A stretch of DNA of 64,000 nucleotides from Chitinophagaceae bacterium (lineage in GTDB: Bacteria > Bacteroidota > Bacteroidia > Chitinophagales > Chitinophagaceae). The DNA lies in assembly GCA_013140985.1 (NCBI GenBank), contig JABFRU010000023.1, positions 62,001-126,000 on the forward strand, in the 5' to 3' direction. Position 1 is the stretch's first letter, and every line of letters begins with the position of its first letter. This document shows, in pieces, positions 54,138 to 63,757 of this stretch. Position numbers and translations under genes: made by a program. The notes below the pieces were generated by a model. That model was not told the DNA's origin. It searched no databases and saw nothing but the letters and a program-made list of their open reading frames with translations.

Positions 54138-54551
54138 ATGAAAAAGCATCTTTTCATTCCTGTACTCCTTCTGTTCATTGTTTTGATAGGTGCTTGTAAA
54201 AAAGACAGTGATTCCTCTCCGCCCGCTACCGACACTTCACTTTCCGCCATTGTAATTGATTTTCCAACTGCCGGCACCCTGTATATTAACGGGTCTTCAA
54301 TTACTATCACCGGAACGATCGTCGATAATGATAATCTAAACCAGGCCAGGGTAGAGATAAGGAATAAGATCACTAATGCTATCTACAATCAACAACAATC
54401 ATCCACAGGAACTGTATCATTTTATCGTTTCACCTGGAACTGGACCGTGGCCGGTATCACTGGCCCCACCCAGGGGACGGTTAAAATAATTTCGAAGGAC
54501 AAAAATGGTTTCGAAGTTTCCAAGCAGGTGGATATCCTGCTTGATAATTGA
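54138..54551 (+). CDS. Lipoprotein with single Ig-like domain
   Basis: A 137-residue lipoprotein: MKKHLFIPVLLLFIVLIGAC with Cys20 as lipid site, a short KKDSDSSPPATDTS linker, then one beta-sandwich (IVIDFPTAGTLYINGSSITI, ITGTIVDNDNLNQARVEIRN, TVKIISKDKNGFEVSKQVDI). The pattern resembles DUF4625-like Ig domains in Bacteroidota. It lies 10 bases upstream of the membrane Fe-S protein gene in the same direction, but no functional link is evident. Confidence 0.75.
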   Translation: MKKHLFIPVLLLFIVLIGACKKDSDSSPPATDTSLSAIVIDFPTAGTLYINGSSITITGTIVDNDNLNQARVEIRNKITNAIYNQQQSSTGTVSFYRFTWNWTVAGITGPTQGTVKIISKDKNGFEVSKQVDILLDN

Positions 54552-54561
54552 TACGATCATT

Positions 54562-55887
54562 ATGCAAATTGCCCAACAAATCCTGTTCATTCTCCTCAGC
54601 ATTGTTTCTATCTGGTTTTTTTCAAAAAAAGTAAAAGAGATCAGTCGCAATATCAAACTGGGAAGAGACGAATATCTCAATGATAATAAACCCCGGCGAT
54701 GGAAAAACCTATTGTTGCTGGCATTCGGGCAAAAAAAAATGTTTCGCAATCCGTTGGTAGCAGTAATGCACTTCTTTGTGTATGCCGGTTTCATCATTAT
54801 CAATATTGAAGTTTTAGAAATTGTACTGGATGGAATAGTTGGCAAACACCGTTTATTTGCTGAGCCACTTGGCGGATTCTATACTTTTCTTATCAATTCA
54901 TTTGAGATACTGGCTTTGCTGGTATTATTGGGCTGTGCCATCTTCCTTGTCCGTCGGAATATTATCAAACTGAAACGTTTTATCAGCAAAGACCTTGACG
55001 GATGGCCCAGAAGTGATGCGAATTATATCCTGATCACTGAAATTGTTTTGATGTCCTTGTTCCTTACTCTCAATGCCAGCGATACGTTATTGCAGGCAAG
55101 AGGATCTGAACATTATGCTGCTAATCCAACCGGTAATTTTATTTTATCACAGTATCTGCATCCGCTTTTAAATGGCATCAGCACCGAAGGGCTTGAAATA
55201 ATTGAAAGGACTTGCTGGTGGCTGCACATCGCAGGCATCTTTGCATTCCTGAACTATCTCCCCTACTCCAAACACCTGCATATCATTCTTGCTTTTCCCA
55301 ATGCCTGGTATGCAAGACTGGAACCAATGGGAAAGATGGAGAACATGGAATCCATACAAAACGAAGTATTGTATGCCATGCAACCCGAAAAAGCCCCAAC
55401 CGGTGAGCAGGCAGTTGCTCCGCAAAAATTCGGGGCAAAGGATATCATGGATCTTAGCTGGAAGAATTTGATGGATGCGTATAGTTGTACTGAATGCGGA
55501 AGATGTTCCGCTGCATGTCCTGCAAACATGACTGGTAAATTATTATCACCCCGGAAAATAATGATGGATACCCGTGACAGGATGGAAGAAGTGGGTAAGA
55601 ACATCAATACAAATAAAGAATTCAAAGAAGATGGCAAGACATTACTGCATGATTATATCTCTGTAGAAGAACTCCGTGCCTGCACTACTTGTAATGCCTG
55701 TGTGCAGGAATGCCCGGTGAGTATTAGCCCGCTGGATATAATCTTACAACTGCGCCGTCACCTGGTAATGGAAGAAAGTAATTCGCCGCAGGAATGGACA
55801 GCGATGTTCAGCAATGTTGAAAACAATTTTGCGCCATGGAAATTTAGCCCGGATGAAAGAGATAAGTGGGCAGAAGAGATGCAATAG
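54562..55887 (+). CDS. Membrane-bound (Fe-S) oxidoreductase subunit, cytochrome-b-like N-terminus with two [4Fe-4S] clusters
   Basis: A 441-residue inner-membrane protein; 54562 is chosen because the first helix (MQIAQQILFILLSIVSIWFF) starts there. It has about five helices (3-22, 72-95, 113-137, 160-180, 228-245) with His residues that could hold haem (MHFFVYAG, WWLHIAGIFAFLNYLPYSKH), as in nitrate-reductase gamma-like proteins. Two ferredoxin-type sites follow: CTECGRCSAACP and CTTCNACVQECP. The usual partner is a CCG-domain protein; a candidate lies about 7 kb downstream (62981). Together they may pass electrons between quinones and an unknown acceptor. Confidence 0.87.
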   Translation: MQIAQQILFILLSIVSIWFFSKKVKEISRNIKLGRDEYLNDNKPRRWKNLLLLAFGQKKMFRNPLVAVMHFFVYAGFIIINIEVLEIVLDGIVGKHRLFAEPLGGFYTFLINSFEILALLVLLGCAIFLVRRNIIKLKRFISKDLDGWPRSDANYILITEIVLMSLFLTLNASDTLLQARGSEHYAANPTGNFILSQYLHPLLNGISTEGLEIIERTCWWLHIAGIFAFLNYLPYSKHLHIILAFPNAWYARLEPMGKMENMESIQNEVLYAMQPEKAPTGEQAVAPQKFGAKDIMDLSWKNLMDAYSCTECGRCSAACPANMTGKLLSPRKIMMDTRDRMEEVGKNINTNKEFKEDGKTLLHDYISVEELRACTTCNACVQECPVSISPLDIILQLRRHLVMEESNSPQEWTAMFSNVENNFAPWKFSPDERDKWAEEMQ

Positions 55888-57502: not shown

Positions 57503-57832
57503 ATGAAACTATCCTATTTTCCCTTTCAAACCCTCGACTGGTCAGCTGTTCACAAAGAAGAACGCAAAGGCGAAACGGGCCTTGCATACTGGCAGGTGCA
57601 TATGATGAATGATACCCGTGTAAGACTGGTTGAATATTCACCCGGCTATAAAGCCGATCACTGGTGCAGCAAGGGCCATATTATTCATTGCCTGGAAGGT
57701 GAAATGGATACTGAACTGGAAGATGGCCGCATCTTCAAACTAACAAAAGGCATGACCTATTTTGTAGGCGATGATTGTGAAGCACACCGCAGCTCAACAG
57801 AAAAAGGATGTAAACTTTTTGTGGTAGATTGA
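57503..57832 (+). CDS. DHCW-motif cupin-fold protein
   Basis: A 109-residue single-domain cupin. Cupin motif 1 is visible as GYKADHWCSKGHIIHCLEGE, with the D-H-W-C sequence that characterises this small group (D-H-C-W in many relatives), and motif 2 as KLTKGMTYFVGDDCEAHRSS. Metal ligands are probably the His residues in these blocks. No activity is known. It follows the SulP gene by 16 bases and is probably co-transcribed. Confidence 0.85.
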   Translation: MKLSYFPFQTLDWSAVHKEERKGETGLAYWQVHMMNDTRVRLVEYSPGYKADHWCSKGHIIHCLEGEMDTELEDGRIFKLTKGMTYFVGDDCEAHRSSTEKGCKLFVVD

Positions 57833-57834
57833 AC

Positions 57835-58689
57835 TTAATACAGTTTCATAAACACATCCTTCACCAGTCCATAATTATTATCGGATACAAAATGATTGGC
57901 GCCGGGAATGATCGTCATTGAAATACTTTTTGCATTGACCAGCATCTTTTTTGAATACCCGGCATTGCTGACAGGAACCAGCCCGTCTTTATCTCCATGC
58001 AGGATAACTACCGGGCAAATGACCTCATCATAATGATCGTCAAGTTCTTTTAATTCTTTTTTTAAATGCCATAGCTCCTGGTTGGATGGCCGCCATGCAC
58101 CAGGCAATAAATATTTCAATGGAGACTTATACAAAACAGGCCGCCATTTTTCCGGTTTCTCTGCTGCAGGATCCAATGCGGCGGCGATCAATACAAGACC
58201 CGAAAACATTCCCGGATTATCAACAGCCAGTTTGACGATCATCGGGCCTCCATAAGAACGCCCGGCTGCATAAATTGGTTTTCCATTCTGCAATTTTTTC
58301 AATAACACACTTATGATGGTTGATTGTTCCTGTAAACTTTTTACATGTCCGAATTCACTGTAACCAAAACCCGGCCTGTCAACAGACACCATCCGGTATT
58401 TACTCAAGAGGTCCTTATCGTACATATACCGCATGAACTTTACCCATCCACCCGGACTTCCATGCACAAATAACAAAGTAGGCAAAGTATCACTACCGGT
58501 CTTTGCATAATGAAGATCAAAGCCGTCTGCTTTGATCGTTTCAGTAAAAAGCTCAACACCCTTTTCAGCAAATTTCTTTTTTGCCTTGCTGTCGCTGATG
58601 CGAAACTTCATGGCAACCTGTGCATAGATGATCCACCCAACAAGCAAAGCAAGAAATATCCACCCAACTCTCTTTAACCATTTCCTCAT
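57835..58689 (-). CDS. Membrane-anchored alpha/beta hydrolase
   Basis: A 284-residue hydrolase with an N-terminal anchor (WIFLALLVGWIIYAQVAM), so the catalytic domain probably faces the periplasm. Oxyanion motif LLFVHGSPGGWVKF, nucleophile Ser in AAGRSYGGPMIVK, Asp in ILHGDKDGLVPV and His in IPGANHFVSDN complete the triad. It starts at the base next to the LysE stop codon, so it is the last gene of the LysE/ATP-grasp operon and may process the exported product. Confidence 0.88.
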   Translation of the reverse strand: MRKWLKRVGWIFLALLVGWIIYAQVAMKFRISDSKAKKKFAEKGVELFTETIKADGFDLHYAKTGSDTLPTLLFVHGSPGGWVKFMRYMYDKDLLSKYRMVSVDRPGFGYSEFGHVKSLQEQSTIISVLLKKLQNGKPIYAAGRSYGGPMIVKLAVDNPGMFSGLVLIAAALDPAAEKPEKWRPVLYKSPLKYLLPGAWRPSNQELWHLKKELKELDDHYDEVICPVVILHGDKDGLVPVSNAGYSKKMLVNAKSISMTIIPGANHFVSDNNYGLVKDVFMKLY

Positions 58690-59325
58690 TTAATTACCTC
58701 CGATCGGTTTATAGATCATGTTATATAATTGCCACAAAGCAGCGAGAATAAAAACAACTCCCATAAAAGTGTTCAGTTGTTTATTACTGGCTTTCATTTT
58801 TGAGATGGCCCATTTGCCACCATAGATATAAACGGCCAATCCGCCAATGGAACCGACAGCAGCGCCGCCGGTAAAAAAATTAAAATCAGTAAAAGTTGTT
58901 TGTAACACATTCCCCTGGATGAGTTGTGTGCTCCAGATGAACCAGAAAGGTATCTGCACAGGATTGATAGCCGATATGCTTACGCCCAATACAAAGCGGT
59001 CGAGTTTATTATTCAGCAATAATCCTTTTTTCTCTCCTGTTTGTTTTCTTGCCATGATCAAGCTCAGAATTCCCAATGCCAGGAAAACAACTACTGTAAG
59101 CCATCCCATAATTTTAAAGACCAGGCTATTTTCTACTATCCAGTCCATGGCAGTTAATGCAAGGCGGAGATAGATCATTTCAACCAATACAATACCCAAC
59201 GCATATTTCCATGCATTCTTTAATCCCTCCTGCACGGCAAGCTGTGTGGCAGTAAGGTTCATATTACCAAATGGTAATTGCCCGAGAAAACTTATTAATA
59301 AAGCGGAAAAGAGAACCTGTATCAT
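58690..59325 (-). CDS. LysE-type exporter, paralogue A
   Basis: A 211-residue six-helix inner-membrane protein of the LysE/RhtB amino-acid exporter superfamily. Helix 1 carries LISFLGQLPFGNMNLTATQL instead of the usual P-G-P motif, then VEMIYLRLALTAMDWI in helix 2 and SISAINPVQIPFWFIW in helix 4. The same positions are conserved in the second LysE-type protein of this operon (60450-61172), which shows common descent. It is co-directional with the adjacent ATP-grasp and hydrolase genes; the exported substrate is unknown. Confidence 0.85.
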   Translation of the reverse strand: MIQVLFSALLISFLGQLPFGNMNLTATQLAVQEGLKNAWKYALGIVLVEMIYLRLALTAMDWIVENSLVFKIMGWLTVVVFLALGILSLIMARKQTGEKKGLLLNNKLDRFVLGVSISAINPVQIPFWFIWSTQLIQGNVLQTTFTDFNFFTGGAAVGSIGGLAVYIYGGKWAISKMKASNKQLNTFMGVVFILAALWQLYNMIYKPIGGN

Positions 59326-59328
59326 GTC

Positions 59329-59399
59329 AGATAAAAGTGAAAAGATAATAGATAAAAGTGATTGCTTACTCTGGTGCTATAGTTTTTATCTTTTATCTT
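59329..59399. repeat. Inverted word repeat between ATP-grasp B and LysE A
   Basis: AGATAAAAGTGAAAAGATAA and GATAAAAGTGA (59329-59361) face AGTTTTTATCTTTTATCTT (59381-59399). In gene direction the first arm begins at the stop codon of ATP-grasp B. Confidence 0.65.
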
Positions 59400-60453
59400 A
59401 AGGTATTGTCTTATCTATCGCACTCATTCTTTTAAAATTCTTTTTTGCTTTTTGCATAAAGCGGTATCCTTTCCAAAAACTCCAGTAGGGAACACCTTTT
59501 TTATGATTGATCTTGCCGATACGGTATAAATGCCGCCAATGCCTCACAATTTCTTTTAACGCACTACCGTAACTCATATTCCTGTCAAATACATGAGTAA
59601 TAGCAGCACCGGCACCATTGTATTCAAGAATAAAAATATTTTTCCCATTCTTCAGGTCTTCCAGCGATGTGCATTTGATGTCGTATCGCCCGAAGTAAAA
59701 CTGCCCGGCCTCATTGCTGATCGTATCAAATACATCGCAGAGTTGCTGATCTATCTCATGATTCAGGTTAACGAATTTTGCGCCTGTATTATGATTGCCT
59801 GCCCTGTTCAGCAAATATTTTTCGGTTACCGGAATGATCTTATTCCAGTTACTCTCATGTTTTTTCTTTAATTGTGCGACTTTATGCCTTGCAACCGGGT
59901 GTGCTGCCACTAATGCATCCAATGTTTTGTTCCCGTCACCTATCACATGCAAATAATCTTTCACAATAAGCCCGGTGATGATACCTTTTGTTTCACCCGG
60001 GTAACGGATATGAAATACACTGTACTCATACAATTCTTCATTAATGAATTTTTGCAGGATATAATTCTCCCCTACTTTGCCATGATAGTTTTGTAATTCA
60101 TCCTCACTTTTTATGATCCGGAATAATACACCTGCCATTCCAGAATCTGGCTTTACTACAACCGGGAAATTCAACCCGGCCTGCTGCATTTCATTTTTCA
60201 CTTTTTCCATATCAACTGCAGGCTCTATCATCAATGTAGTGGGGTAACTCCATTTGGGCAATTGATCATACATTTCTTTTTTACTCCCGCCTTCAAAGCC
60301 CGCAAATATCAAACTGGGATTGACAGGGGTGAAATACCAGAAATGTCTTGCCTTGACAGCATACCATAACCAGAAAATGTCAATGGGCAGATAGATCACA
60401 TCATAAGACCACCGCTCCCAGTTAACTATTTTTTGAAAAAAAGCTTTCATCAA
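59398..60453 (-). CDS. ATP-grasp ligase, paralogue B
   Basis: A 351-residue protein that probably forms an amide or peptide bond through an acyl-phosphate. The aromatic, interfacial N-terminus (NWERWSYDVIYLPIDIFWLW) suggests membrane contact. Then come SLIFAGFEGGSKKEMYDQLP, the nucleotide-binding strand NFPVVVKPDSGMAGVLFR, GDGNKTLDALV, and the metal site GRYDIKCTSLEDLKNG with FILEYNGAGA (acidic and Asn ligands), ending KGVPYWSFWKGYRF. It is a paralogue of the protein at 61286-62329. Its start overlaps the stop of LysE B by four bases, so the pair is translationally coupled. Confidence 0.82.
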   Translation of the reverse strand: MMKAFFQKIVNWERWSYDVIYLPIDIFWLWYAVKARHFWYFTPVNPSLIFAGFEGGSKKEMYDQLPKWSYPTTLMIEPAVDMEKVKNEMQQAGLNFPVVVKPDSGMAGVLFRIIKSEDELQNYHGKVGENYILQKFINEELYEYSVFHIRYPGETKGIITGLIVKDYLHVIGDGNKTLDALVAAHPVARHKVAQLKKKHESNWNKIIPVTEKYLLNRAGNHNTGAKFVNLNHEIDQQLCDVFDTISNEAGQFYFGRYDIKCTSLEDLKNGKNIFILEYNGAGAAITHVFDRNMSYGSALKEIVRHWRHLYRIGKINHKKGVPYWSFWKGYRFMQKAKKNFKRMSAIDKTIP

Positions 60454-61172
60454 TCATTTGCTATTTCTGTCTTCTCTAATTGTTCTCTTTTCTTTTCTAT
60501 TTCTTCCTTTATCACTTCCGGGTTGGTGAGTTGCTCAACCGGGTCTCTTTTCTTCAGCATTTTTATTATTTGAAAAATAGCTGTCGCCAAAAAAATACCA
60601 CCGATCACCCAACTTACAATATGCTGGTTCCTGTTGATCGTATCTGCGATCAGCACTCCGCCAAAAATAAATATACAATTGCCAATAAAAGTACCAATGC
60701 CGATACCCAATATATAGGTATTGTAATGATCTTTCCGTGGCAGCAATATTTTTTTAGTAAACAATACTGTACTCCATCCCAGCCAGAATGGGATCTGCCC
60801 GGGACTGACCGCACACATAGCAGCACCCAATATGAATTTTGGCAGTGAACTGTCAAGCACTGCATTTTTTTGTTCTCCCGGGTGCAAAGCCGCATAAAAA
60901 CTAAAAGCAGCCAATGCTAATACGATCGCCAGTGTAACGTATTCTAAAATTTTGAAAAGTAGTTTTTGTTTCCGTATCCAGTCCAAAGCGACCAATGAAA
61001 AACGGACATACATCATTTCCACCATTAATGAACCGAATGAAAATAACATGGCGGCGCCAATGCCGTCTGATATGGATATCTGCATGGCGGCTATATTCAT
61101 CGTAGCCAAGGGAAGAGAACCGAGAAAACTAATGAGCAATCCGACACCGAAGATTTTCAACAAAGGCCGCAT
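60450..61172 (-). CDS. LysE-type exporter, paralogue B, with charged C-terminal tail
   Basis: A 240-residue six-helix exporter. It matches paralogue A at LLISFLGSLPLATMNIAAMQ, VEMMYVRFSLVALDWI and MCAVSPGQIPFWLGW. It differs by a 35-residue tail (DPVEQLTNPEVIKEEIEKKR and onward), a likely coiled or helical cytosolic segment that could contact the ligase. It is coupled to ATP-grasp B by a four-base overlap. Substrate unknown. Confidence 0.83.
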   Translation of the reverse strand: MRPLLKIFGVGLLISFLGSLPLATMNIAAMQISISDGIGAAMLFSFGSLMVEMMYVRFSLVALDWIRKQKLLFKILEYVTLAIVLALAAFSFYAALHPGEQKNAVLDSSLPKFILGAAMCAVSPGQIPFWLGWSTVLFTKKILLPRKDHYNTYILGIGIGTFIGNCIFIFGGVLIADTINRNQHIVSWVIGGIFLATAIFQIIKMLKKRDPVEQLTNPEVIKEEIEKKREQLEKTEIAND

Positions 61173-61196
61173 GGGAACGAAAATACGAAAGAAAAC

Positions 61197-61285
61197 AGCT
61201 AGTAGCGAGTGGAGTGAGGCTTATGATAAAATGACATCTTCGGCTGCATACGATACATGCTAGCTACTAGCTACTTCCTACTGGC
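61197..61285. repeat. Inverted word repeat between ATP-grasp A and LysE B
   Basis: AGCTAGTAGCGAGTGGAG (61197-61214) faces TGCTAGCTACTAGCTACTTC (61258-61277). In gene direction the first arm starts within a few bases of the ATP-grasp A stop codon (TAG, 61286-61288). The word AGTAGCT is repeated within each arm. Confidence 0.65.
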
Positions 61286-62329
61286 CTAATCATATTTCTC
61301 CAGCAACTTAAAATGCCTGTTCGCATTGCGGAGATATTGATACCCTCTTTTGAAGCTCCAGTAGGGAGTACCATTTTTATGATTATAACGGCTGATGCGG
61401 AACAACATTTTCCAATGATGAAGAATAACGCCGTAGGCCTTCCAGATACTCATATTGCAATCATAAATATGATTGGGCTCGGCGCCACAACCATTGAATT
61501 CAAGTATCAGGAAATTCTTTCCCTGTTTCAGATCTTCAATGGAATTGGTTTTGATATCATAACGGCCGTAGAAAAATTTATCTGTATAATGACTCAGTTC
61601 ATCAAATACTTTCAGCAAATTTTCATCGATCTCTTTATACAAGTTAGTAAAATGTGCCCCCCGGTTATGATTGCCTGCATAAGACAAATAAAACGTTTCC
61701 TCTTCATGCAATACCCGGTCAAAGCGATGACCATGGCGATGCTCCATTTCCGGCATCCTGTGTTTTGCCCTTGGATGTTTCCCGATCAATTGTTGTAAAG
61801 TAGAAACGCCATCACCTTTTACCTGCAACAATTCTTTATCAATGAAACCGCTTACTACCCCTGATTGCTGTGTGGGGTGACGATAATAAAACACACTAAC
61901 TTCTACCGGCATTTCAACAAGATCCTGGACAATATATTCAACAGGAACTCTTTCATGATATTTTTTTAGCTGCTCCTCGTTATCAATTTTCCGGAAGAGT
62001 ATTCCTTTCATACCTACATCCGGTTTTACAATAAACGGAAAGGTGAAACCAGCTTCATCTATTTTCTTTTTTACTTCTTCGTAGGGCCAGTCATGCATCA
62101 CAAATTTGGTGCGGGGAACCAAATGCGGCGGCAACTGGTCATACATTTCCTTTTTTCCTTCGCCATGAAAACCGCCGAATGTTATGGTGGGATTGGATGA
62201 ACTGAAATACCAGATGGACCAGCTGCGGATGCAGTACCATGCCCACACCGGGAAAAGCGGGGAATAGAGTACATAAAAATTCCAGAGTTCCCAGTTCGTT
62301 AACCGTTGAAAAATTTTTTTGATCCTCAT
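61286..62329 (-). CDS. ATP-grasp ligase, paralogue A
   Basis: A 347-residue homologue of the protein at 59398-60453, first gene of the operon. The shared order is NWELWNFYVLYSPLFPVWAW (aromatic N-terminus), TITFGGFHGEGKKEMYDQLP, FPFIVKPDVGMKGILFRKI, GDGVSTLQQLIGKHPRAKHR, GRYDIKTNSIEDLKQGKN, ILEFNGCGAEPNHIYDCNMS and NGTPYWSFKRGYQYL. All expected ATP and metal residues are kept in both copies, so both are probably active. Differences in the central block (YYRHPTQQSGVVSGF against HIRYPGETKGIITGL) may reflect different substrates. The ligated compounds are unknown. Confidence 0.82.
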   Translation of the reverse strand: MRIKKIFQRLTNWELWNFYVLYSPLFPVWAWYCIRSWSIWYFSSSNPTITFGGFHGEGKKEMYDQLPPHLVPRTKFVMHDWPYEEVKKKIDEAGFTFPFIVKPDVGMKGILFRKIDNEEQLKKYHERVPVEYIVQDLVEMPVEVSVFYYRHPTQQSGVVSGFIDKELLQVKGDGVSTLQQLIGKHPRAKHRMPEMEHRHGHRFDRVLHEEETFYLSYAGNHNRGAHFTNLYKEIDENLLKVFDELSHYTDKFFYGRYDIKTNSIEDLKQGKNFLILEFNGCGAEPNHIYDCNMSIWKAYGVILHHWKMLFRISRYNHKNGTPYWSFKRGYQYLRNANRHFKLLEKYD

Positions 62330-62415: not shown

Positions 62416-62934
62416 ATGCTTAAACAGTTCTCTCTGTTTTTTACCGTGTTTTGTATGGCAACATCATTTACTGCCTATGCAACTCCGGTAGTCAACCCGG
62501 TTGAAAAAATAACTCCGCAACAAATCCTTCTTAAGAAGATAACTGATCTTAAAATAAAAGACCTGCAGAAACTAACAGGCAGAAAGTTTACACTGAAAGA
62601 AAAGATCGGTTTTGGAATATTGAAACTTAAGCTAAAGCAACAGCTTAAACATACACCTGCAGATGGATCAAAAAAAGGAGAAACAGCCTTGATCTTCGGC
62701 ATTGGATCATTGGCCATACTTTTCCTGGCTACCGTTGTTCCTGGTGCCCTCTTTGCCTCTTTTATAGCAGCTATCATTGCCATCATACTTGGCGGCTCTG
62801 CCAGAAAAAAAGATCCTTCTGATAAAAAAGCCAAAACGGCAAAGCTATTGGGATGGATCACTCTGGGATTGATCGCTGCCCTGATGATTGTTATCTTTAT
62901 AGCCCTTTCTAATTGGTCGTGGGGATGGGGATAA
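62416..62934 (+). CDS. Exported or membrane protein with two C-terminal helices
   Basis: A 172-residue protein: signal peptide MLKQFSLFFTVFCMATSFTA, a basic helical region (about 30-80; KKITDLKIKDLQKLTGRKFT, then LKLKLKQQLKH), and two or three hydrophobic helices (about 92-125 and 143-165) separated by ARKKDPSDKKAKTAK. This resembles small DUF4190-like membrane proteins common in Bacteroidota. No function assigned. It lies between the divergent ATP-grasp operon and the CCG-domain Fe-S gene. Confidence 0.7.
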   Translation: MLKQFSLFFTVFCMATSFTAYATPVVNPVEKITPQQILLKKITDLKIKDLQKLTGRKFTLKEKIGFGILKLKLKQQLKHTPADGSKKGETALIFGIGSLAILFLATVVPGALFASFIAAIIAIILGGSARKKDPSDKKAKTAKLLGWITLGLIAALMIVIFIALSNWSWGWG

Positions 62935-62980
62935 ATGATGTGTTTTCACTAATATTGTGGCGGATCAACTATTAACGGAT

Positions 62981-63757
62981 ATGCATGTTCCAACCGTAGC
63001 TGAACTGGTTGCCAATGGTCAAAGTCCTGAAGTATTATTCTGGGTAGGTTGCGCCGGCAGTTTTGATCAGCGGGCACAAAAAATAACCAAAGCCTTTGCA
63101 ACGATCTTACATAAAGTTGGTATCAACTATGCCATTTTGGGCAAAGAAGAGATGTGCACCGGCGACCCGGTACGGAGAGCCGGCAATGAATTCATGTTCC
63201 AGATGATGGCGTACCAGAATATTCAAACGCTGAACAATTATGGTATCAAAAAGATAGTAACGGCCTGCCCTCATTGTTTTAATATCATTAAAAATGAATA
63301 TGCTGAGTTAGGCGGAAAGTATGAGGTCATTCATCACACTACATTTTTACAACAACTGATCAATGAAGGAAAAATAAAATTGAAAGAAGGCGGAAGTTTT
63401 AAAGGAAAGAAGATCACCTATCATGACAGTTGCTATCTCGGCCGGGCCAATGATATTTATGAAGCGCCAAGAAAAGTGCTGGAAGCTTTGGATGCAGAGT
63501 TAGTGGAAATGAAACGTTGCCGCAGCAATGGTCTTTGTTGCGGTGCCGGCGGCGCACAGATGTTCAAGGAAGAAGAAAAGGGTACAATAAGAGTGAATGC
63601 AGAACGCAGTAATGAGGCCATTGAAACAGGCAGTAATATTATCGCAGCCGCCTGTCCTTTTTGCAATACGATGCTGACGGATGGAGTAAAGCTGGCGGAG
63701 AAAGAAGAATCCGTTAAAGTGCTGGATATAGCAGAGCTTATTGCGCAGTCGATTTGA
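62981..63757 (+). CDS. (Fe-S)-binding protein with CCG domains (heterodisulfide-reductase subunit B-like)
   Basis: A 258-residue cytoplasmic protein; ATG 62981 gives the typical MHVPTVAELVANGQSPEVLF opening, while GTG 62957 adds eight residues. It has two cysteine-rich CCG repeats: FWVGCAGSFD with TACPHCFN in the first, and YHDSCYLGR, GLCCGAGGAQMF and AACPFCNTM in the second, which in relatives bind a non-cubane Fe-S cluster or similar. The membrane partner with two [4Fe-4S] clusters is probably the protein at 54562-55887. It is followed by a word repeat and a further gene. Confidence 0.9.
   Translation: MHVPTVAELVANGQSPEVLFWVGCAGSFDQRAQKITKAFATILHKVGINYAILGKEEMCTGDPVRRAGNEFMFQMMAYQNIQTLNNYGIKKIVTACPHCFNIIKNEYAELGGKYEVIHHTTFLQQLINEGKIKLKEGGSFKGKKITYHDSCYLGRANDIYEAPRKVLEALDAELVEMKRCRSNGLCCGAGGAQMFKEEEKGTIRVNAERSNEAIETGSNIIAAACPFCNTMLTDGVKLAEKEESVKVLDIAELIAQSI

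Follow-up and report, generated by a model that had tools for sequence, protein, structure and literature searches.

Organization of the operon

The window analysed here is a 64,000-nucleotide stretch of contig JABFRU010000023.1 (assembly GCA_013140985.1) from a Chitinophagaceae bacterium. We examined an operon in it that is composed of two putative ATP-grasp ligases, two LysE-type exporters and an alpha/beta hydrolase. All five genes are present between positions 57835 and 62329 of the minus strand, in the order ligase A, exporter B, ligase B, exporter A, hydrolase (Table 1). The reading frames confirmed the leftward arrangement given in a preliminary description of this DNA, including the overlap of exporter B with ligase B and the abutting ends of exporter A and the hydrolase. 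The overlap amounts to 4 nt, between the stop codon of exporter B and the TTG start of ligase B, whose second codon is ATG. Gaps of 113 nt and 72 nt separate ligase A from exporter B and ligase B from exporter A, respectively.

Table 1. Genes of the ligase-exporter operon and their positions in the window
Gene	Coordinates	Strand	Description
Ligase A	61286..62329	-	347 aa; putative ATP-grasp amide ligase; opens the operon; paired with exporter B
Exporter B	60450..61172	-	240 aa; LysE-type translocator; PF01810, 36.3 bits (cut-off 25.6); placed in the tree mostly with partners of ligase-A-type ligases
Ligase B	59398..60453	-	351 aa with the TTG start; paralogue of ligase A, 44% identity; KPDSG, GRYDI, EYNG
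Exporter A	58690..59325	-	211 aa; LysE-type translocator; PF01810, 56.1 bits; grouped with partners of ligase-B-type ligases
Alpha/beta hydrolase	57835..58689	-	284 aa; PF00561, 63 bits; GRSYG at 143; putative hydrophobic N-terminal anchor, residues 7-29

Fold and family of the ligases

Both ligases contain KKEMYDQLP, GRYDIK and PYWSF, as the preliminary description had noticed, and carry KPD(V/S)G, GRYDI, E(F/Y)NG, GNHN(R/T)GA and PYWSF at corresponding positions. Ligase A, as modelled with AlphaFold2 (pLDDT 93.8), has cyanophycin synthetase as its top match among solved structures. The closest structures also include LysX/ArgX, RimK and D-Ala-D-Ala ligase, all of them makers of peptide or amide bonds. 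The predicted ATP-grasp fold spans most of the protein, and both ligases are full-length members of the superfamily. Residues K102, R256, D258, E277 and N279, presumably those that bind the nucleotide and the metal, are invariant in an alignment of 53 rows (A2), so that the ATP and metal residues expected earlier are indeed conserved.

The ligases could not be named from a curated family profile, since all Pfam matches were sub-threshold and no Pfam or NCBIfam cut-off was passed. For RimK (PF08443, cut-off 21), ligase B scored 18.4 bits and ligase A 13.9 bits, and two fused relatives passed the cut-off with 22.2 and 23.3 bits. For cyanophycin synthetase (TIGR02068), the scores were 19.1 and 13.6 bits, under a cut-off of 850. 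Unlike that enzyme, the ligases are single-domain proteins of 347-351 aa (347 aa for ligase A) without its other domains, and they have a conserved aromatic N-terminus and a transporter partner. The ligase profile also weakly matched an L-amino acid ligase (E 0.006). No characterised enzyme was found to be orthologous to the ligases, which leaves the preliminary description standing on this point. Searching the window genome with ligase A returned only ligase A itself and ligase B, and a profile search added one weak match (E 1.9e-9) within an 886-aa frame.

Pairing of ligases with transporters

Homologues of ligase A are present in 68 of 147 genomes of the same family and in 56 of 296 genomes of the phylum, the window genome being included in both counts. 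This wide distribution argues that the operon genes are not there by chance. Rows of the window family group with named Chitinophagaceae. A degenerate-pattern scan for the ligase gave at least 119 stretches; named carriers among the matches listed are Flavobacterium, Tenacibaculum, Dyadobacter, Pedobacter, Chitinophaga arvensicola, Balneolaceae and Rhodothermia, together with Acidobacteriota, Planctomycetota and Bdellovibrionales. Profile A1, applied to the 296 phylum genomes with at most 7 candidates scored per genome, detected no full-length member beyond the matches of ligase A.

We gathered 181 distinct loci, among them the two of the window, by merging 210 ligase open reading frames wherever their last 200 residues were identical. 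These locus rows are related to one another and their flanks are unequal, those of most of L001-L058 being only some 1.5 kb long; the models for recognising neighbours derive from close relatives and could overlook distant ones. A LysE gene lies within 4.5 kb of the ligase or is fused to it in 92 loci (85 on the same strand, 5 on the opposite strand, 2 fused), and 70 of the 85 same-strand genes are at most 150 nt away. A DedA/VTT domain is fused to the ligase in 22 of the 181 loci. The two transporter types were never seen together (0/181; Fisher 3.7e-8, on rows that are not independent). Moreover, the distances among ligases and among their LysE partners co-vary (Mantel r 0.73, 0/1000 permutations, 82 pairs). 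The co-occurrence of ligases and exporters across genomes, which the preliminary description had proposed to check, therefore holds. Ligase-transporter coupling was seen in Bacteroidota, Acidobacteriota and Planctomycetota; a Bdellovibrionales metagenome-assembled genome (MAG) has the ligase, with no transporter seen. The closest counterpart of the window is locus L213 from a Sphingobacteriales MAG, which has ligase A, exporter B, ligase B and exporter A in the same order, followed by the start of a window-type hydrolase, of which the locus includes 111 residues (138 bits) before it ends.

LysE proteins are classically amino-acid exporters, and both window exporters resemble LysE/RhtB proteins in exceeding the PF01810 cut-off (Table 1). 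They differ from them in reaching no NCBIfam cut-off and in being partnered, or in relatives fused, with a ligase. The two exporters are 33% identical. Of the motifs thought to be common to them, PxQIPFW does occur in both, while another is common in part only (VEMMYVRFSLVALDWI versus VEMIYLRLALTAMDWI). In the tree, exporter A belongs to a clade of 8 rows (support 100/99) in which every member partners a ligase of the ligase-B clade. Exporter B falls in a larger clade, whose partners are mostly of the ligase-A type, with some of the common type and one of the ligase-B type (L030). The idea that a ligase-exporter pair was duplicated is thus right as to paralogy; a local tandem duplication is not needed, because both pairs are old paralogues and each type occurs alone in other genomes.

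Other frequent neighbours of the ligase are DinB-like genes (92/181 loci) and TANGO2 genes (77/181). In L130, L146, L174 and L177 the DinB-like and LysE genes are opposite in strand to the ligase, which suggests rearranged operons in Lutibacter, Lutimonas and their kin. Inspection by eye of the frames of L185 revealed no ligase.

Fused relatives and the hydrolase

In 17 of the 22 DedA loci, hydrolase, DedA domain and ligase form a single polypeptide. In the Rhodothermia protein the three parts all score above the Pfam cut-offs (Abhydrolase_1, 88 bits; VTT_dom, 64; RimK, 23.3), and the NCBIfam family nearest to its DedA part is UptA (54 bits, cut-off 250). The other 5 DedA loci, from Acidobacteriota or Planctomycetota, encode a DedA-ligase fusion without hydrolase, with a TANGO2 gene nearby in each. 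LysE-ligase fusions were found in L031 and L202 (Winogradskyella MAG), and fusions carrying TANGO2 at the N-terminus of the ligase in L052, L120 (Dyadobacter soli), L182 (Chitinophaga arvensicola) and L186 (Pedobacter), the last being cut by the locus edge. By the usual reasoning on gene fusions, ligase, membrane transporter, hydrolase and TANGO2 would be joined in one function. According to the excerpted report, human TANGO2 binds acyl-CoA (PMC11867700).

A model of the fused protein (pLDDT 79.4, pTM 0.48) consists of a helix followed by the hydrolase, the helical DedA part and the ligase. The alignment consensus has a basic stretch before the ligase, which points to a periplasmic hydrolase and a cytoplasmic ligase as the likely topology of the fused form.

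The hydrolase of the operon reaches a hydropathy maximum of 2.02 in its N-terminal hydrophobic segment, and is probably periplasmic and membrane-anchored. Apart from the window, L102 and L213 are the only loci in which it was found beside the ligase; the homologue in L102 scores 279 bits against the window hydrolase and 21 bits against the fused one. At E <= 1e-40, the hydrolase occurs in 38 of the 147 family genomes, and 28 of these are among the 68 that carry the ligase (Fisher 7.8e-5). In the 27 genomes other than that of the window that have both, the two genes are on different contigs in 23 and more than 200 kb apart in 4. We therefore rejected the hydrolase as a fixed member of the operon.

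Linkage to aminolipid genes

The ligase stands at the end of a frame of more than 800 aa in 25 phylum genomes, and the 8 looked at have the hydrolase-DedA-ligase form. An acyltransferase of the OlsB type (PF13444) is found upstream of it on the same strand, at 2661-3313 nt, in all 25. Across the collected loci, OlsB-like neighbours accompany 16 and OlsA-like neighbours 14 of the 22 DedA loci; both are absent from the 92 LysE loci and from the 67 others. The PF13444 acyltransferase of L175 (93 bits) has OlsB as its best NCBIfam match (134 bits), as does the neighbour acyltransferase of L110 (138 bits), and the PF01553 acyltransferase of L160 has OlsA (138 bits); these three neighbours of fused clades did not reach the NCBIfam equivalog cut-offs. 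A DinB-like protein was also among the upstream genes tested.

The window genome encodes three GH3 (PF03321) proteins that match NCBIfam OlsH with 323-426 bits (cut-off 620). At L218:7327-10257 (contig C63), one of their genes precedes a LysE gene, with a transglycosylase-family gene next in line. Eight genomes were inspected for the corresponding GH3 paralogue, and in 7 of them LysE is next to it (G021 is the exception, and in G435 LysE is on the opposite strand). GH3-LysE neighbours occur in Chitinophaga arvensicola and others too. GH3 proteins were counted by eye in 25 of 27 genomes; G083 and G086, which lacked a PF13444 status, were dropped, and G442, with a PF13444 match under the cut-off, was counted as negative. 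At least three GH3 proteins are present in 15/15 PF13444-negative genomes versus 1/10 PF13444-positive ones (Fisher 4.9e-6, uncorrected for relatedness). This correlation suggests that a GH3 enzyme could supply an N-acyl amino acid in the window genome. In a planctomycete, OlsH serves the formation of ornithine lipids, as stated in excerpts of PMC12493201.

Of the 127 PF13444-positive phylum genomes, 83 have no homologue of ligase A, and profile A1, with at most 7 candidates scored per genome, added no full-length member, which leaves a universal flavolipin serine ligase unsupported.

Peptide lipids are known from Chitinophaga: excerpts of PMC8433624 report that the genus makes Gly-Ser (m/z 431.31) and Gly-Ser-Orn (m/z 545.39) lipids and that, of 25 strains, 23 had the Gly-Ser lipid 430; C. 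arvensicola is not named in the main text. The TANGO2-ligase of C. arvensicola has an adjoining LysE gene, and a PF13444 search of this genome found none. Assigning two ligases to the two residues is unsupported in Chitinophaga, as C. arvensicola has one; one of the two amide bonds would then need another enzyme or a ligase that acts twice.

Surroundings of the operon

The operon is flanked by Fe-S electron-transfer genes at 54505-55887 (+) and 62957-63757 (+), which encode a Fer4 membrane protein and a CCG-domain protein; a CCG-domain gene is close to the ligase in 14 of the 21 Chitinophagaceae-type loci compared. A DHCW-motif cupin (57503-57832, +; NF038084, 165 bits) adjoins the 3' end of the operon. 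Divergent from ligase A, a gene at 62416-62934 (+) encodes a 172-aa protein that has, by eye, a signal-like N-terminus and a hydrophobic C-terminal half, for which no curated Pfam or NCBIfam family scored above its cut-off. Promoter-like sites numbered 4 in place of 13.9 expected and terminator-like sites 8 in place of 4.9, from which we draw no inference. Searches of the window for tRNA genes and Rfam families gave no match.

Proposed function and alternatives

We propose that the ligases extend an N-acyl-amino-acid lipid (aminolipid) by one residue and that the product crosses the membrane by way of LysE or DedA, a reading whose chances we put a little short of even. The operon would then consist of two ligase-transporter pairs. 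Each ligase would use ATP to activate a carboxylate, most likely the free carboxyl group that an N-acyl amino acid exposes at the membrane to which it is bound, and would couple this carboxylate to an amino acid through the amino group of the latter. The resulting lipo-dipeptide or lipo-tripeptide, formed on the cytoplasmic face, would be carried over the inner membrane by the partner LysE, the job done by the DedA/VTT domain in the fused relatives, and the anchored hydrolase may cut an ester or an amide at the outer side. Two pairs leave room for two successive residue additions. The preliminary description had the operon make and export an amino-acid conjugate; ligase-transporter coupling supports this much, and we replace the small soluble conjugate by a lipid because the fused and operonic relatives point there.

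Several observations weigh against this proposal. The PF13444 search of the window genome gave 0 matches, and among the 31 phylum genomes that carry the ligase in a shorter frame 12 lack PF13444, that of the window included; the substitution of GH3 for PF13444 is a correlation in 25 genomes. Makers of Gly-Ser lipids without this ligase family must use another enzyme, and C. arvensicola has a single ligase in its whole genome though its genus makes a tripeptide lipid. Neither LysE nor DedA was seen within 4.5 kb in 67 of the 181 loci. The LysE proteins that have been characterised transport free amino acids out of the cell, and the lipid carried by DedA could be a different one. The window-type and fused hydrolases have only the superfamily in common. 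Finally, excerpts of PMC10470608 report that a TANGO2 protein of bacteria carries heme.

A wider form of the lipid proposal, which we consider rather doubtful, is that of a general class of aminolipid-extending ligases coupled to LysE or DedA lipid transporters. LysE-type proteins would be lipid transporters, and the two window pairs would add successive residues, with Gly-Ser-Orn-like additions as in Chitinophaga.

Somewhat less likely still is a soluble dipeptide or amino-acid conjugate (a signal, or a siderophore-like or antimicrobial compound) that the ligases would make, LysE export and the hydrolase mature. LysE, from a family of amino-acid exporters, is indeed the commonest partner of the ligase, the fold is near that of D-Ala-D-Ala ligases, the ligase profile gives a weak hit to an L-amino acid ligase, and Pfam finds no acyltransferase in the operon. 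However, this account is opposed by the 22 loci that have a DedA domain instead of LysE and by the PF13444 gene that adjoins the long forms in 25/25 genomes, and presence in 68 of 147 family genomes is, in our judgement, broad for a special metabolite. We find it improbable that the ligase modifies a carrier lipid or a cell-wall precursor: the DedA part does resemble the undecaprenyl-phosphate transporter UptA and the fold is in common with D-Ala-D-Ala ligases, but its score stays under the UptA cut-off, the neighbours tested are acyltransferases of the aminolipid type with no wall genes among them, and just 56 of 296 phylum genomes have ligase A homologues. An overflow system without a dedicated product, in which the ligase would use up surplus amino acids by condensing them and LysE would relieve the pool, would fit the function of the LysE family and the Crp/Fnr-like regulator gene seen by eye directly downstream of the ligase in L088 (8408-9106) and L141 (5335-6033, there before LysE), but it has little chance of being correct as it leaves the OlsB/OlsA linkage and the DedA and TANGO2 fusions unexplained.

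Relation to known systems

The fused loci resemble the OlsBA, OlsF, GlsBA and flavolipin (lipids 430 and 654) pathways in having OlsB-like and OlsA-like genes upstream of the ligase. They differ from them in that no ATP-grasp ligase figures among the enzymes of these pathways in the excerpted sources, and the window genome lacks PF13444. The proposed system would also be like MprF, in which a synthase and a transporter serve an amino-acid-bearing lipid, sometimes within one protein; MprF uses aminoacyl-tRNA, whereas the window system would use ATP-grasp enzymes, with LysE or DedA as the transporter. OlsH offers another parallel, since the window genome has three homologues, one of them beside LysE; OlsH is a GH3-type lyso-ornithine-lipid synthetase in the excerpts of PMC12493201, the ligases belong to another enzyme family and the OlsH homologues lie outside the operon. 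The fold and the transporter families are already known; we met no description of their combination and probable role in the literature that could be searched. Among the matches listed, titles and the beginnings of abstracts tied no ATP-grasp ligase to DedA, LysE or aminolipids, and the sole co-mention of ATP-grasp and aminolipids stands in a reference list.

To make a dipeptide lipid, one more amide bond must be formed. The excerpts of PMC12746155 mark the gene for it with '??'; there, the gene that ligates serine in Gly-Ser lipids was still to be identified in December 2025. According to the excerpted literature, host TLR2 mediates the action of Gly-Ser and glycine lipids of Bacteroidota, and human arteries have been found to contain such lipids. 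For the enzyme that attaches the second residue, a ligase family that is coupled to transporters and linked to aminolipid genes offers a concrete candidate, at least in part of the phylum. If the proposal is true, it would extend the LysE transporters to lipids and place the TANGO2 proteins of bacteria, which are related to a human disease gene, in a lipid context.

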